A DNA stretch of 64,000 nt from Actinomycetospora chibensis (GTDB lineage Bacteria > Actinomycetota > Actinomycetes > Mycobacteriales > Pseudonocardiaceae), in the NCBI RefSeq assembly GCF_028737215.1, contig NZ_JAQZAM010000004.1:186001-250000 (forward strand). Direction: 5' to 3'. The notes under the pieces were generated by a model, which worked only from the letters and a program-made list of their open reading frames with translations, searched no databases and was not told the DNA's origin. Positions 42,372 through 49,319 of this stretch are shown one piece after another (position 1 is the first letter of the stretch; every line of letters starts with the position of its first letter). The position numbers and the translations under genes were made by a program.

Positions 42372-43079
<708 letters not shown>

Positions 43080-44764
43080 GCCCGCCGTGGGCGCAGCGGC
43101 AGCCGCACCGTGAACACGGTGCCGCGGCCGTCCTCGCCCGCCCCGACCTCGACGCTCCCGCCGCGCCGGTCCACGACGCGGCGCACGAGGGCCAGGCCGA
43201 GGCCTCGTCCGTCCCGGCGTCCTTCCTCGGCGTGCTTGGTGGACCAGCCAACCGTGAACGCCGCCTCCGGATCGGCGAGGCCCGGCCCGTCGTCGGCGAC
43301 CCGGACGACGACCGCCCCGTCCTCGACGTGCAGGTCGAGCTCCACCACGCCGCCGCCCCGTCCGTCGTGGGCGCTCTCGAGCGCGGCGTCCAGGGCGTTG
43401 TCGAGGAGGTTGCCGACGACGGTGACGCGGTCGGTCGAGGCCTGCTCGTCCCCGGTGTCGGCCGCGCCGAGCGCCGTGCTCTCCCCGACGCGGAGCGCGA
43501 GCCCCCGGTCGCGGGCGTCGGTGGCCTTGTCCAGCACGAGCGCGGCAAGGGCGGGGTCGGCGAGACGGTCGCGCAGGTTCCCGTCGCCCGCACCGTCGCC
43601 GGTGTCGAGGAGGTCGCGGGTCCAGCGCTGGGCCAGGTCGCGGGCGTCGTCCTGCGCGCCGAGCTCGATGAGCGTGGACACCGCCTGCAGGTGGTTCGCG
43701 TGCTCGTGGGCGGCGAAGCGCAGCGCGCGGGTGACCGAGCGGGCGTCGTCGAGCTCGCGGGTCATCGCCTCGAGCTCGGTGCGGTCCCGCAGGGTCACGA
43801 CCAGATCCGGCGCCGGGCCGGCCACCTCCGTGCGGTTGACCAGCAGCAGCCGCTCGCCCACGAGCATCGTCTCGTCGGTGACGGGGGAGCGGTCGGCGAG
43901 ACGCTCGCGCAGGGCCGGGTCGACGCCGAGCTCGTCGAGCGTCGGCCCGGCGGCGCGCGAGGGCGCGAGCGTGGCGGGCAGCCCGAGCAGCCGGGCGGCC
44001 TCGGCGTTGAGGACCACCACCCGCCCGGAGTCCGCGTCGAGCACCAGCAGGCCCTCGCGCATCGCGGCCATCACGGCCTCGTGGTGGCGGTGCAGGGCGG
44101 TGATCTCGTGCGGCTCGAGGCCCAGGGTGTCGCGCTTGACCCGGCGCGCCGCGAGCCAGGCGAGCCCCACCCCCAGGGCGATCGCCACCGCGGCCGCCAG
44201 CGCGAGCACCGCGAGCTCCCGGGTGATCCGGTCGGCGACCTGCACCCGCAGCTGCCCGGCCGCGACCATCCCGACGACGGTGCCGTCCGCCCCGAGCACC
44301 GGCACGATCGCCCGCACCGACAGCCCGAGCGTCCCGGGGAACGTCTCCACGAGCGTCGCGCCGCCGGCGGCCGGCAGGAACGTGCCCTGGTAGGTCTCGC
44401 CGATCCGCGCCGGCTCGGGATGGCTCAGGCGGGTGCCGGCCGGGTCCATGACGGTGACGAACGAGACGCCGGTGCCGGCGCGCGTCGCCTCGGCGGCGGC
44501 CTGGATGCGGGGGACGTCCCGGGCGGCCACCGCGTCCGCCAGCCCCGGCGACGCGGCGAGCGCCACGGACACCGCGAGGACCTTGTCCGCGGCGTCCCGC
44601 TCGATCGTCTGCCGGGTGCTCCACGCGCTCACCCCGCCCGCGATCACGGCGGTGAGCACCACCGTCACGATCTCCAGCACGAGCAGCCGGCGCACCAACC
44701 GCGAGCCCCGCCGGCCCGGGGCTGCCGGGGGGTCCGAGGGGGCCGACGGGTCCGGAGCGCTCAC

Positions 44765-45245
44765 CGGCCGACCGTCGCGCCCCGGCGCCGCACGCGCAAG
44801 CGTGGGTCCGGTCGTGGTCGCGATCCTGGTTGCGGAGAGCGACGGGTGCGCGAGGGGCCGCGACGGACCCGGATGATCACGCTCCGCCACCGTCCCGCAG
44901 GCCCGGGCACGGGCCGGACCCCCGCGCGCGGGCCCGCGGAGACGGGCGGATCGGACGCCCGCGACGGAGCGGACCGCGTGGATGCCCCTGCGGCTCGCGC
45001 GGCGCTCGGTGCCCTGCTCAGCGGGGGAACGCCGTCCCGCGTGCCGACGGCGCCCCGCGGGCGCTCACGAGAACCGGACACAGTGGGGCACGAGGGCACG
45101 GACCGGCACGGAACCGGCGGCGACCGGGCTCGGAACAGTCCCACGCCGCGTGACCGGTTGAGGGCTCCGGATATCGTCTCGTGCACGACGAGGTGACGGT
45201 CAGGACACGGTCGTGGTGCGGTGGGGCGGGAGGGGGTGACGCATC
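44765..45245. other. intergenic region before the polysaccharide fusion gene
   Basis: About 480 bp with no gene I can support, if the kinase starts at 44764. It contains TTGAGGGCTCCGGATATCGT near 45158-45177 (a possible -10 TATCGT) and, next to the fusion gene, the ribosome site GGGAGGGGGTGACGC. GGAAC at 45132 with GTT at 45157 resembles an ECF promoter but the spacing is too long. Confidence 0.35.
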
Positions 45246-48200
45246 GTGATGAACAGGCGCACGCGGCCGACGCCCCCGCGACGCCGGTGGGGCATCTGGA
45301 CGATGACCGGCGTCCTCGTGCTGATGGTGCTCACCGTGCTCACGGTCTCGGGCCTGGTGAGCTCCAGCATCGGCAACGACGCCCACGCCCGCGCGCCCGA
45401 GGGCCACGAGACCGTCCCTGCGGCGATCAGCGCCGGCGGCCCGATCATCGACGCCCGTACCGACCCGGTGCGCTCGGGCCGGCTGCCCGACCGCACCGTC
45501 GCCCTGACGTTCGACGACGGGCCCGACCCGGTGTGGACCCCGGAGATCCTCGAGGTGCTCGCGCGCCACCGCGTGCCCGGCACGTTCTTCGTCGTGGGCT
45601 CGATGGTCGCCCGGCACCCCGACATGGCGCAGCGGGTCGTCGCGTCGGGTTCCGAGATCGGCGTCCACACCTTCACCCACCCCGATCTCGCCGGCGTGTC
45701 CGAGCTGCGCCGCGACCGCGAGATCGCCGACACCGAGCTGGCGATCGCCGGCGCGACCGGCGTCTCCACCCACCTCGTGCGCCCGCCGTTCTCGTCGACC
45801 TCCGACGCCCTCGACGACCCGGGCTACGGCACCGTCCTCGCGGCCGGCCGCCAGGGCTACGTCACGGTGCTCACCGACGTCGACGGCGAGGACTGGCAAC
45901 GCCCCGGCGTCGACGCGATCGTCCGCAATGCGACACCGCAGAACGGCGCGGGCGCGACGGTGCTGCTGCACGACGCCGGCGGCGACCGCGCGCAGACCGT
46001 CGCCGCCCTCGACCGGCTGATCCCGCAGCTGCAGGCCCAGGGCTACCGGTTCGCCACCGTCAGCGACGCCGCGGGCCTCGGGCCCCACGGGCAACCCGCG
46101 CCGTCCCGCGACCGGATGGTGGGGCAGGGCCTGCTGGCCACGGTCGGCGTCGCGCAGGGCGTCGTCACCCTGATGGAGGTCGCGCTGATCGGTGTCGGCG
46201 GCCTGGTGATCGCCCGGCTGGTCGTGATGCTGGTGGTGGCCCGGCGGCACGCGAAGCGCCGTCGCGACCCGTCGTTCTCGTGGGGCGAGCCGGTGACCGA
46301 CCCCGTGTCCGTGGTCGTGCCCGCGTACAACGAGTCCGACAACATCGAGGCGACCGTCCGCTCGATCCTGGCGAACGACCATCCCCTCGAGGTCGTGGTG
46401 GTCGACGACGGCTCCACCGACGGCACCGCCGACCTGCTCGAGGACCTCGCCCTGCCCCGGGTGCGCGTCGTACGTCAGGCCAACGCCGGCAAGTCCGCGG
46501 CGCTCAACCGGGGCGTGGCGGCCGCGAAGCACGACCTCATCGTCATGATCGACGGCGACACGATCTTCCAGTCGGACACGGTGGCGCAGCTCGTGGCGCC
46601 GTTCGCCGACCCCGCGATCGGTGCGGTCGCCGGCAACGTCAAGATCGCCAACCGCGACCGCCTCATCCCGCGCATGCAGCACCTCGAGTACGTCGTCGGC
46701 TTCAACGTCGACCGGCGGGTGCAGGACACCTGGGGCTCGATCTCGACGATCCCGGGCGCGGCGGGCGCGTTCCGTCGCGAGGCCGTGCAGGAGGTCGGCG
46801 GGCTCTCCTCGGACACCCTCGCCGAGGACACCGACCTCACGATCGCGCTCGGGCGCGCGGGCTGGCGCGTCGTCTACGCCGAGCACGCGCTGGCCTGGAC
46901 CGAGGCCCCGGTCTCCGCGGGCCAGCTGTGGCGCCAGCGGTTCCGCTGGAGCTACGGGACCATGCAGGCGCTCTGGAAGCACCGCCGTGCGCTGCGCGAA
47001 CGCGGTGCGTCGGGCCGCATGGGGCGCCTCGGGCTCGCCCACATCGGGGTCTTCCACGTCGCGCTGCCGCTGGCGGCGCCGCTGGTCGACCTGCTCTTCG
47101 TCTACGGGCTGCTCTTCGGCGACCCGGCGGTGGCGCTGCTGCTCTGGGGCTCGATGCTGCTGTTGCAGCTGATCGCCGGCGTGCTGGCGTTCCGGATGGA
47201 CGGCGAGCCGCTCGGCCCGCTCTGGGCCCTGCCGGTGCAACAGATCATGTACCGCCAGCTGATGTACGTGGTGCTGGTCCAGGCCGTGATCAGCGCGCTC
47301 ACCGGAGCGGGCGTGCGCTGGCAGAAGCTGCAGCGCACCGGTGCCGTCGCCGAGCACCTGGCGCCCGCGGCCCCGGCCCGGGCGGACACGCGGCTCGGCG
47401 ACGACGGGCGCTCGCGCCCCGCGGCCGACCGCCTGCCCGTCCCGGCGGCCGTGCGCGGACCGGCCCCGGACGCCGAGCCCGCGGAGCCCGCCGCGACGCG
47501 CGCCCCGCGCACCGGCGGTGGCCGCGAACGGTGGCTCGACCTGCTGCGCGCCATCGCGCTGATCCGCGTCGTGACCTACCACGCCTTCGGCGACGGCTGG
47601 ATGAGCATGGTGTTCCCGTCGATGGGCGTCATGTTCGCCCTCGGCGGGTCGCTCATGGTGCAGTCGCTGCGCCGCGGCGAGGCCCTCGACGTCATCGGCC
47701 ACCGGCTGCGCCGCCTGCTGCCGCCGTTGTGGTTCTTCGGCCTGCTCGCCGTGCCCCTGATGCTGTGGCACGGCTGGGCGGGGCAGGACGCCGACGGCAC
47801 GGTGACGTCGCCGCTCGTGTGGTCGGACCTCCTGTACTGGGTCTTCCCGCTGGTCGACCCACCCGGCAGCGACTGGGGCTCCGACGCGGTCGTCGGCCTC
47901 TGGTACATCCGCGCCTACCTGTGGTTCGTGCTGCTCACGCCGCTGATGCTCTGGGTGTTCCGGCGGCGCCCGCTGCTGGCGCTGTCGGTGCCGCTGCTCG
48001 TCGTCGGCCTCGACGCGGTGCTCGGGTCGCCGATGGGCGAGTGGGGCGCGATCGGCCCCGTGCTCGTCGACGGCGCCACGTTCGCGGCGTGCTGGATGCT
48101 CGGCTTCGCCCACCGCGACGGCACGCTGCGCAAGCTGCCCGTGCTGCTCGCCTGGGGCGGCGCCGCCGTCCTCGTGGCGGGCGGCCTGGGCTGGGCGTTC

Positions 48201-49319
48201 ACCCACCCCGCCGGCGACATCGGCATCGACCTCAACGACATCCCGTTCGCCCAGGCCCTGGTCTCGTTCGGTGCGGTCCTGCTCGTGCTGCGGTTCAACC
48301 CGCAGGTCGCGTGGCTGGAGCGGGTGCCGCTGCTCGGGCGCCTGGTCACCGTCGTCAACGCCCGGGCGATCACGATCTACCTGTGGCACAACGTGGCCAT
48401 CGCGGTCTCGCCCACGATCGGCGACGTCCTCGGCTGGGAGTCCGAGGGCCAGCACTTCGCGATCGCCGTCGCCCTGATCGTCGTCAGCGTGCTCGGGTTC
48501 GGCTGGGTCGAAGACCTCGCCGCGGGGCGGTCGCTCTCGCTGCTGCCGAACAGCGGCGGCGGAGCCCGTCGCCCGGCCCGTCGGGCTCCCGAGGGCCCCC
48601 GCCCGCCGGTGATCCCCAACGACGTCGAGAACGGGGTCACGTCCGCGCTGTCGCAGGGGTCGCTGCGCGCCCTCGTCGGCCGGGTCGTCGGGGCCGCACC
48701 GCCGTCGGGGCACGCCGACCGCGTCGCCGCGGTCCTGCCCCGCCCGGGGCAGCCGCGCCCCGGACAGGACGGCGCCGACCAGCCCCGGCCCGACCAGCCC
48801 CGTCCTGCCTCCGCGCCGGCTCCCCGCGCGGCGCCCGGGCCGGCGTCGCGGCCGGCGCCGCGGGGAGCACCGACACCGACCGGAGGCGCCCGCCGCCCCG
48901 TCCCGTCCTCCCCGGCCACCGGCGTGCCGGTCCCGGTGGGGGCGCGGGGTGCGGCCGGCTCCGCGGGCCCGGGCACCGGCCGCTACACCCCGGTGCCGCG
49001 GACCTCGGCCGTTCCCTCCGGCGGGCCCGTCCCCGTGCCGGCCCCGCCGCCCCCGCTGCCCTCGCCGACACCCCGGCCGACACCCCAACCGACTGCCCGG
49101 CCCGCACGACCGGCTCCGCGCCTCGTCACGCCGTCCGGCGGGACCGCCCGCCGGCCGTCGGCACCGCCGGACCCGACGGGCTCTCCGGAGACGGTGACCG
49201 GGCTCGTCCCCGGCCGTGCCGCGGCCCACGAGCCGGTGCTGTCGTTCGACGACCCGTCGGTCCGGCGCCCCGGCCGGCACCACCGCGCGGGAGACGACGG
49301 CTCGTCGCCGCGGGGCTGA
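45246..49319 (+). CDS. polysaccharide deacetylase - GT2 synthase - acyltransferase-3 fusion
   Basis: A 1357-residue membrane protein with three enzymes in one chain. Residues 17-39: membrane anchor. 80-285: CE4 deacetylase with TFDDGPDP, GVHTFTHPDL (His pair), RPPFSSTSD, TDVDGEDW and LLHDAGGD. 295-335: membrane helix. 350-610: GT2 with VVVPAYNESDNIEAT, VVVDDGSTDGT, MIDGDTIF (D-x-D near 434), EDTDLTIALGRAGW and QRFRWSYG (near 562), then membrane helices. 757-1090: acyltransferase-3 starting RERWLDLLRAIALIRVVTYHAFG with many helices. 1090-1357: Pro/Arg-rich disordered tail. CE4-GT2 fusions (MatB-like) make and deacetylate poly-N-acetylglucosamine-type polymers in streptomycetes; adding the acyltransferase suggests an O-acylated product. 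Start GTG 45246 or ATG 45249, after GGGAGG. Confidence 0.88.
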   Translation: MMNRRTRPTPPRRRWGIWTMTGVLVLMVLTVLTVSGLVSSSIGNDAHARAPEGHETVPAAISAGGPIIDARTDPVRSGRLPDRTVALTFDDGPDPVWTPEILEVLARHRVPGTFFVVGSMVARHPDMAQRVVASGSEIGVHTFTHPDLAGVSELRRDREIADTELAIAGATGVSTHLVRPPFSSTSDALDDPGYGTVLAAGRQGYVTVLTDVDGEDWQRPGVDAIVRNATPQNGAGATVLLHDAGGDRAQTVAALDRLIPQLQAQGYRFATVSDAAGLGPHGQPAPSRDRMVGQGLLATVGVAQGVVTLMEVALIGVGGLVIARLVVMLVVARRHAKRRRDPSFSWGEPVTDPVSVVVPAYNESDNIEATVRSILANDHPLEVVVVDDGSTDGTADLLEDLALPRVRVVRQANAGKSAALNRGVAAAKHDLIVMIDGDTIFQSDTVAQLVAPFADPAIGAVAGNVKIANRDRLIPRMQHLEYVVGFNVDRRVQDTWGSISTIPGAAGAFRREAVQEVGGLSSDTLAEDTDLTIALGRAGWRVVYAEHALAWTEAPVSAGQLWRQRFRWSYGTMQALWKHRRALRERGASGRMGRLGLAHIGVFHVALPLAAPLVDLLFVYGLLFGDPAVALLLWGSMLLLQLIAGVLAFRMDGEPLGPLWALPVQQIMYRQLMYVVLVQAVISALTGAGVRWQKLQRTGAVAEHLAPAAPARADTRLGDDGRSRPAADRLPVPAAVRGPAPDAEPAEPAATRAPRTGGGRERWLDLLRAIALIRVVTYHAFGDGWMSMVFPSMGVMFALGGSLMVQSLRRGEALDVIGHRLRRLLPPLWFFGLLAVPLMLWHGWAGQDADGTVTSPLVWSDLLYWVFPLVDPPGSDWGSDAVVGLWYIRAYLWFVLLTPLMLWVFRRRPLLALSVPLLVVGLDAVLGSPMGEWGAIGPVLVDGATFAACWMLGFAHRDGTLRKLPVLLAWGGAAVLVAGGLGWAFTHPAGDIGIDLNDIPFAQALVSFGAVLLVLRFNPQVAWLERVPLLGRLVTVVNARAITIYLWHNVAIAVSPTIGDVLGWESEGQHFAIAVALIVVSVLGFGWVEDLAAGRSLSLLPNSGGGARRPARRAPEGPRPPVIPNDVENGVTSALSQGSLRALVGRVVGAAPPSGHADRVAAVLPRPGQPRPGQDGADQPRPDQPRPASAPAPRAAPGPASRPAPRGAPTPTGGARRPVPSSPATGVPVPVGARGAAGSAGPGTGRYTPVPRTSAVPSGGPVPVPAPPPPLPSPTPRPTPQPTARPARPAPRLVTPSGGTARRPSAPPDPTGSPETVTGLVPGRAAAHEPVLSFDDPSVRRPGRHHRAGDDGSSPRG

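Follow-up and report, generated by a model that had tools for sequence, protein, structure and literature searches.

Among the closest described systems is the mat locus of Streptomyces, where MatB (SCO2962), a protein uniting a CE4 polysaccharide deacetylase with a GT2 glycosyltransferase, makes poly-N-acetylglucosamine (PNAG) together with MatA (PMC5972031, PMC4391728). MatA is required for PNAG in S. lividans, and SCO2961, right downstream of matB, has been termed an icaC orthologue (PMC5972031); two genes lie between matAB and ftsEX (PMC5972031, PMC4391728). CE4-GT2 fusions, their acyltransferase-3 (AT3) neighbour and the parallel with the ica genes are already in print. Here we describe a gene of Actinomycetospora chibensis in which CE4, GT2 and AT3 domains form one chain, an arrangement for which searches of open-access papers, by titles and the openings of abstracts, showed no earlier report. 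The gene occupies 45246..49319 (+ strand) of a 64,000-nucleotide stretch, hereafter the window (contig NZ_JAQZAM010000004.1, positions 186,001 to 250,000); it starts with GTG and encodes 1357 residues in one intact frame. Judged by its sequence, it appears to be a MatB-type protein to which its own IcaC-like AT3 neighbour has become fused. We consider, with a probability of roughly two in three, that the product is a MatB-type exopolysaccharide synthase joined to an IcaC-like acyltransferase, which would polymerise a glycan, deacetylate it and acylate the emerging chain.

An earlier note on the window had recognised CE4 deacetylase, processive GT2 and AT3 parts in a single chain, and both this list and its coordinates proved correct against the open reading frame (ORF) and Pfam, the three Pfam hits all lying above curated cut-offs. 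The CE4 domain (residues 76-285, 45471..46100, + strand), delimited by Pfam, fold and catalytic positions and predicted to be extracellular, matches Polysacc_deac_1 (PF01522) at residues 79-188 with 107.5 bits. It displays the Asp-His-His metal site and the catalytic motifs of its family (D90/D91, H141/H145, R179, W217 and H242), together with the CE4 fold, since Foldseek retrieved CE4 deacetylases such as 4l1g (TMt 0.86). The processive GT2 domain (residues 353-583, 46302..46994, + strand), which would be cytosolic, was assigned from Pfam, NCBIfam and folds: it matches Glyco_tranf_2_3 (PF13641) at residues 353-571 with 139.9 bits, carries D387/D388, D436-x-D438, E527-D528 and Q564-x-x-R567-W568, and is matched by Foldseek to hyaluronan and cellulose synthase folds. 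Its best NCBIfam score is with PgaC_IcaA (196 bits), followed by MftF (102), EpsD (101), NodC (98) and CelA (63). This half of the chain has the layout of MatB-type proteins, in which a membrane helix connects an N-terminal CE4 with a PgaC-like GT2. The AT3 domain (residues 761-1093, 47526..48524, + strand), recognised by Pfam, motifs and model, matches Acyl_transf_3 (PF01757) at residues 762-1087 with 89.6 bits for a cut-off of 31 bits, and ten membrane helices are predicted in it by the model and by hydropathy.

A scan of genome contigs provided 285 relatives, the best 80 of which represent 79 distinct loci, so chosen that shares among them are not frequencies and that further fusions may exist. 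All three domains lie in one ORF in 20 of these 79 loci (13 from Actinomycetospora, six from Pseudonocardia and one from Saccharomonospora), the closest being that of A. callitridis (L003), with 97% identity in the best segment. Two of them, L014 and L015, are identical in the fusion gene and form a single entry in trees and alignments. ORFs of relatives were taken from stop to stop, and their lengths may include bases ahead of the true start. In the remaining 59 loci, hereafter split loci, CE4-GT2 is a gene of its own; 56 come from Streptomyces, Actinacidiphila or Kitasatospora and three from Dactylosporangium, Actinoplanes and Paractinoplanes. A separate AT3 gene directly follows CE4-GT2 in 42 of the 59, and in each of these 42 a candidate AT3 start codon is found at most 3 nt from the CE4-GT2 stop. 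This frequent occurrence of AT3 as its own gene right behind CE4-GT2 in streptomycetes had gone unmentioned in the earlier note. The other 17 yielded no adjoining AT3 gene; they include one Streptomyces clade of 11 loci (L024, L026, L035, L039, L042, L050, L054, L057, L058, L070 and L075) in which a fumarase/lyase-type gene, assigned by Pfam in L024 only, comes after CE4-GT2. A further arrangement was seen in S. longispororuber (L051:5497-8157), where a MatA-like segment and CE4-GT2 share a single open frame, apparently as a matA-matB fusion, and a separate AT3 gene follows.

The integrity of the window gene was examined at several levels. Two further frames over 45246-49319 also hold long ORFs; a chance or wrong-strand ORF is nevertheless ruled out, as GC by codon position in the fusion frame (0.764/0.549/0.959) has the bias of coding sequence. 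A frameshift or assembly join between domains, named by the earlier note as a finding that would undo its claim, is likewise ruled out because 20 other loci likewise keep the three domains in a single open frame. In four pairwise comparisons with the window, synonymous codon differences outnumber nonsynonymous ones on both sides of the join (raw counts, not dN/dS). Against L003, the synonymous/nonsynonymous counts are 25/0 for CE4, 25/6 for GT2, 23/8 for AT3 and 49/34 for the C-terminal tail. Against L005, L016 and L001, all three domains also differ mostly synonymously (for AT3, 66/34, 55/40 and 77/45, respectively), whereas the tail differs mostly nonsynonymously (50/83, 53/113 and 52/104). 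These counts bear on the proposal that AT3 has a different wall glycan as its substrate and, though joined to the synthase, leaves the synthase product untouched. AT3 proteins do act on many surface glycans (PMC9558356), and the 17 split CE4-GT2 genes without a neighbouring AT3 gene would suit such a loose connection. However, AT3 adjoins CE4-GT2 in 42 of the 59 split loci, the fusion has been kept in three genera and synonymous differences prevail in AT3 in each of the four comparisons; we hold this proposal to be quite unlikely.

The kinship with MatB suggested by the earlier note was upheld by comparison with ftsEX-linked loci rather than with SCO2962 itself. Three split loci (L025, L029 and L033) present the order FtsE-type ATPase, FtsX, two shared genes, MatA-like gene, CE4-GT2 and AT3, the first two genes being assigned by Pfam in all three loci, and the two genes between ftsX and the MatA-like gene, identified by Pfam in L029, encode an S41 peptidase and SmpB. 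Their CE4-GT2 proteins share 50-53% identity with the window over 667-688 residues, and their AT3 proteins 41-42%. For the whole clade of five loci to which they belong (the ftsEX clade), and of which these three were shown to lie by ftsE-ftsX, the values are 50-56% and 41-44%. Slightly closer to the window AT3 (43-50%) are the 35 split AT3 genes that belong neither to the ftsEX nor to the Actinacidiphila group. In 26 split loci, a matA-matB-AT3-like cassette lies near a CofH/MqnC-type gene and not near ftsEX. One of them, L077 (1277-9221), was considered as the mat locus and ruled out, as it adjoins the CofH/MqnC-type gene rather than ftsEX. From these two contexts it follows that the CE4-GT2/AT3 loci of streptomycetes are of at least two kinds, and the published mat work may concern just one of them.

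To look for MatA itself, we built a profile on 12 short genes that precede CE4-GT2 in split loci. It detected a MatA-like gene ahead of CE4-GT2 in 55 of the 59 split loci (the 12 profile sources included); in the four others, the contig begins less than 700 nt from the piece used. Beside the window gene and the 20 fused loci, no match appeared even at an E-value of 10, in a search where HMMER filters may miss weak matches to a protein as short as MatA, which has a single membrane helix. The lack of a MatA-like gene next to the fused genes is well supported as a statement on gene neighbourhood. It is also plausible that the fused protein is a self-contained production line, and no more than plausible since a MatA-like gene, present beside split but not fused genes, may lie elsewhere in the genome.

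Conservation of the catalytic residues was followed in an alignment of 75 rows (A1) comprising the window, 19 distinct fused relatives, 26 of the 59 split CE4-GT2 pieces and 29 of the 42 split AT3 pieces. All 46 rows that cover the catalytic positions of CE4 and GT2 have the same residues there, and the AT3 motif of helix 1, R768-x10-H779, is present in 49 out of 49. This is the defining motif of the family; an AT3-type start had been correctly perceived in the earlier note, but not in the RxxxxxR-His form given there. In a second alignment (A2; the window and 34 of the 42 split AT3 pieces), the RxxR of helix 3 occupies columns 64 and 67, invariant in 35 of 35 rows and corresponding to R820/R823 as numbered by hand from the row start at residue 757. 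Loss of catalytic residues, the other finding that had been named as fatal to the claim, was not seen in any of the three domains wherever the rows cover them. The fused AT3 domain keeps the residues reported essential in other AT3 proteins. The invariant RxxR columns speak against the view of AT3 as an exporter or gate of the polymer that transfers no acyl group. This older idea has a history, as IcaC was first taken for a PNAG transporter and the matter is described as still undecided (PMC9558356), and the extra membrane helices might substitute for the MatA-like protein not seen beside the fused genes. We nonetheless judge an exporter unlikely.

The fold of the AT3 domain leads to another possibility. 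Modelled on its own (residues 757-1114), the domain gave a mean predicted local distance difference test score (pLDDT) of 88.0 and a predicted template modelling score (pTM) of 0.87. Foldseek returned no match at an E-value of 0.001, and its best match, 8jkv (E 0.35, prob 0.94), is HGSNAT, a glucosaminide N-acetyltransferase (PMC12423673). The AT3 part could then re-acylate the amines freed by CE4, swapping acetyl for another acyl group. Such an acyl exchange is carried out on Nod factors by NodC, NodB and NodA. NodB gives the best NCBIfam score of the CE4 domain (142 bits, with PdaB near at 139), and, as parts of one chain, CE4 and AT3 would both encounter the polymer as it emerges. The HGSNAT match is weak, however, the published proposal for IcaC is O-succinylation (PMC9833829), and N- and O-transfer cannot be told apart from sequence. 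We regard re-acylation as unlikely, and its complete version as very unlikely, namely a one-chain exchange in which GT2 extrudes the polymer, CE4 deacetylates it and AT3 re-acylates the amines with a different acyl group, yielding an N-acyl glucosamine polymer and dispensing with a MatA/IcaD-type partner.

The origin of the fusion was considered in two trees rooted at midpoint, one for CE4-GT2 (79 rows, computed with a quick method) and one for AT3 (62 rows), in which L017 has a long branch. In both, the 20 distinct fused rows (the window and 19 others) fall on one side of a branch, with support of 99 for CE4-GT2 and 100/99 for AT3. With only the best loci sampled, these trees are compatible with a single origin, short of proving it; among the Pseudonocardiaceae genes covered, one fusion event is probable, starting from CE4-GT2 and AT3 genes placed side by side as in streptomycetes. 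This route is an inference, because three Micromonosporaceae rows without an adjacent AT3 gene branch next to the fused group in the midpoint-rooted CE4-GT2 tree. A plain loss of the CE4-GT2 stop codon is unlikely to be the whole story, as the AT3 gene lies in a different frame from CE4-GT2 in 40 of the 42 split pairs.

The membrane topology was assessed from hydropathy, loop charges and an AlphaFold2 model of residues 1-1114 based on A1 (mean pLDDT 84.4, pTM 0.70). An N-terminal helix (residues 15-39, 45288..45362, + strand; hydropathy peak 2.33, six K/R before it, helical in the model) would run from the cytosol to the outside, and a long helix (residues 287-340, 46104..46265, + strand; model and hydropathy) would return to the cytosol. 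The GT2 module ends with membrane or interface helices (residues 587-697, 47004..47336, + strand; model and hydropathy), three of which are hydrophobic and one possibly interfacial. An interfacial helix, IF3, occurs in related synthases. By analogy, one of the three helices after GT2 is probably interfacial, because GT2 and the N-terminus of AT3 can both be cytosolic only if the chain crosses the membrane an even number of times between them. Thus, the arrangement of the earlier note, with CE4 outside and GT2 inside, agrees with homology and predicted helices; the full topology is tentative, with three helices counted after GT2. At the fusion point lies a Pro/Ala-rich linker (residues 698-760, 47337..47525, + strand), with pLDDT below 50 at 695-701 and 704-758, disordered in the model at 704-758 and poorly conserved except in the closest relative. 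Loop charges suit a ten-helix AT3 with both termini in the cytosol. The chain ends in a Pro-rich basic tail (residues 1094-1357, 48525..49316, + strand), probably cytosolic by loop charges and delimited with the help of lengths in relatives. The disordered tail claimed at 268 residues is there, with a length of about 264 after the last model helix. The tails of the fused loci, compared as the equivalents of residues 1101-1357, are basic, contain 18-27% proline and change quickly: they measure about 190-300 residues in Actinomycetospora and 100-154 in Pseudonocardia, and only 16 remain in Saccharomonospora L017, where the tail is nearly absent.

Taken as a fused synthase and acyltransferase, the protein could work as follows; the polymer, the acyl group, its target and the order of the steps are those that we infer. 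The cytosolic GT2 would polymerise a GlcNAc chain, probably PNAG-like, from nucleotide sugar and extrude it through its own membrane helices. CE4, held outside by two membrane helices, would strip part of the chain of its N-acetyl groups as it emerges. The AT3 domain, with its ten helices, would draw acyl-CoA from the cytosol and transfer the acyl moiety through the membrane to this same chain, an O-ester being the likeliest product. How AT3 proteins that stand alone without an SGNH domain reach their sugar has been asked in print (PMC9558356, PMC9833829), and it was suggested that IcaC may do without such a domain because of a close association with IcaAD (PMC9833829). The CE4-GT2-AT3 fusion is an IcaC-synthase association of this sort in covalent form. 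It could keep AT3 beside the polymer exit, where a separate SGNH transfer domain could become unnecessary, and it supports, short of proof, acylation of the nascent polymer by AT3.

Several points weigh against this interpretation. The function of IcaC itself, as transporter and/or O-succinyltransferase, has been called an outstanding problem (PMC9558356), and we found biochemical work on none of the fused proteins. The GT2 score of 196 bits stays far below the 422.3-bit cut-off of the PgaC_IcaA equivalog (TIGR03937). The AT3 part matched no NCBIfam model and, by sequence, no solved PDB structure, and its fold match is the weak one given above. To these are added the 17 split loci without an adjoining AT3 gene, the AT3-less Micromonosporaceae rows, the lack of a MatA-like gene beside the fused ones and the odd count of helices after GT2.

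The genes around the window gene and the 20 fused loci were called by a rough codon-bias script, which small genes may escape, and then clustered. Among the genes so called, we recognised neither a candidate partner nor, beside the fused gene, a conserved gene for a small membrane protein. Actinomycetospora loci share upstream genes for a ThiF-rhodanese protein, a dicarboxylate symporter and a two-component system (Pfam on the window copies). The latter lies in the window at 42372-44890, next to the dicarboxylate symporter and divergent from the fusion, as a response regulator (+ strand) and a Cache-domain histidine kinase (- strand) with overlapping 3' ends; the kinase gene occurs upstream of the fusion in 10 of the 13 Actinomycetospora loci. 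A GntR regulator and an SSF symporter follow the fusion in L003, and the Pseudonocardia and Saccharomonospora fused genes have different neighbours. In a plasmid collection, none of the 399 matching records contained 80% of the query at one place. Sphingomonad plasmids, e.g. AP027328.1 from Sphingobium, carry CE4-GT2 relatives with about 39-40% identity over residues 53-699 only.

A natural fusion of AT3 with a PNAG-type synthase amounts to genetic evidence that both act at one place, and it points to SCO2961, named by just three of the papers listed in a literature search, as a likely member of the mat pathway. A single polypeptide also allows polymerisation, deacetylation and acylation to be tested through point mutants. 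With respect to known systems, SGNH, alanine/serine racemase and NRF domains are the AT3 fusion partners named in the relevant parts of four papers, and no synthase is among those named there (PMC9833829, PMC9558356, PMC7448272, PMC12423673). The acyltransferases OafB and OatA resemble the window protein in joining AT3 to a second domain that serves a surface-glycan pathway; in these, however, SGNH comes after AT3, whereas here a synthase and deacetylase precede it. Gram-negative pgaB-like fusions also join a glycosyltransferase to a PNAG-type deacetylase, but with the glycosyltransferase at the N-terminus and no AT3 part in the description given (PMC7112194). The window GT2 and CE4 domains score with the rhizobial NodC and NodB models, below cut-off; the Nod proteins are separate enzymes for short oligosaccharides, and NodA is not known to be an AT3 protein. 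Staphylococcal icaADBC encodes the same three predicted activities, GT2 (IcaA), CE4 (IcaB) and AT3 (IcaC), in separate genes and with IcaD. IcaC, for which O-succinylation of PNAG is only proposed (PMC9558356), is a stand-alone AT3 gene of an icaADBC-type operon, while its counterpart in the window is fused into one chain. As to the Streptomyces mat locus (matA-matB-SCO2961), it shares with the window a MatB-type CE4-GT2 chain, right behind which an AT3 gene stands in related loci, and the window gene differs in having AT3 in the same chain, a long tail and no MatA-like gene beside it.

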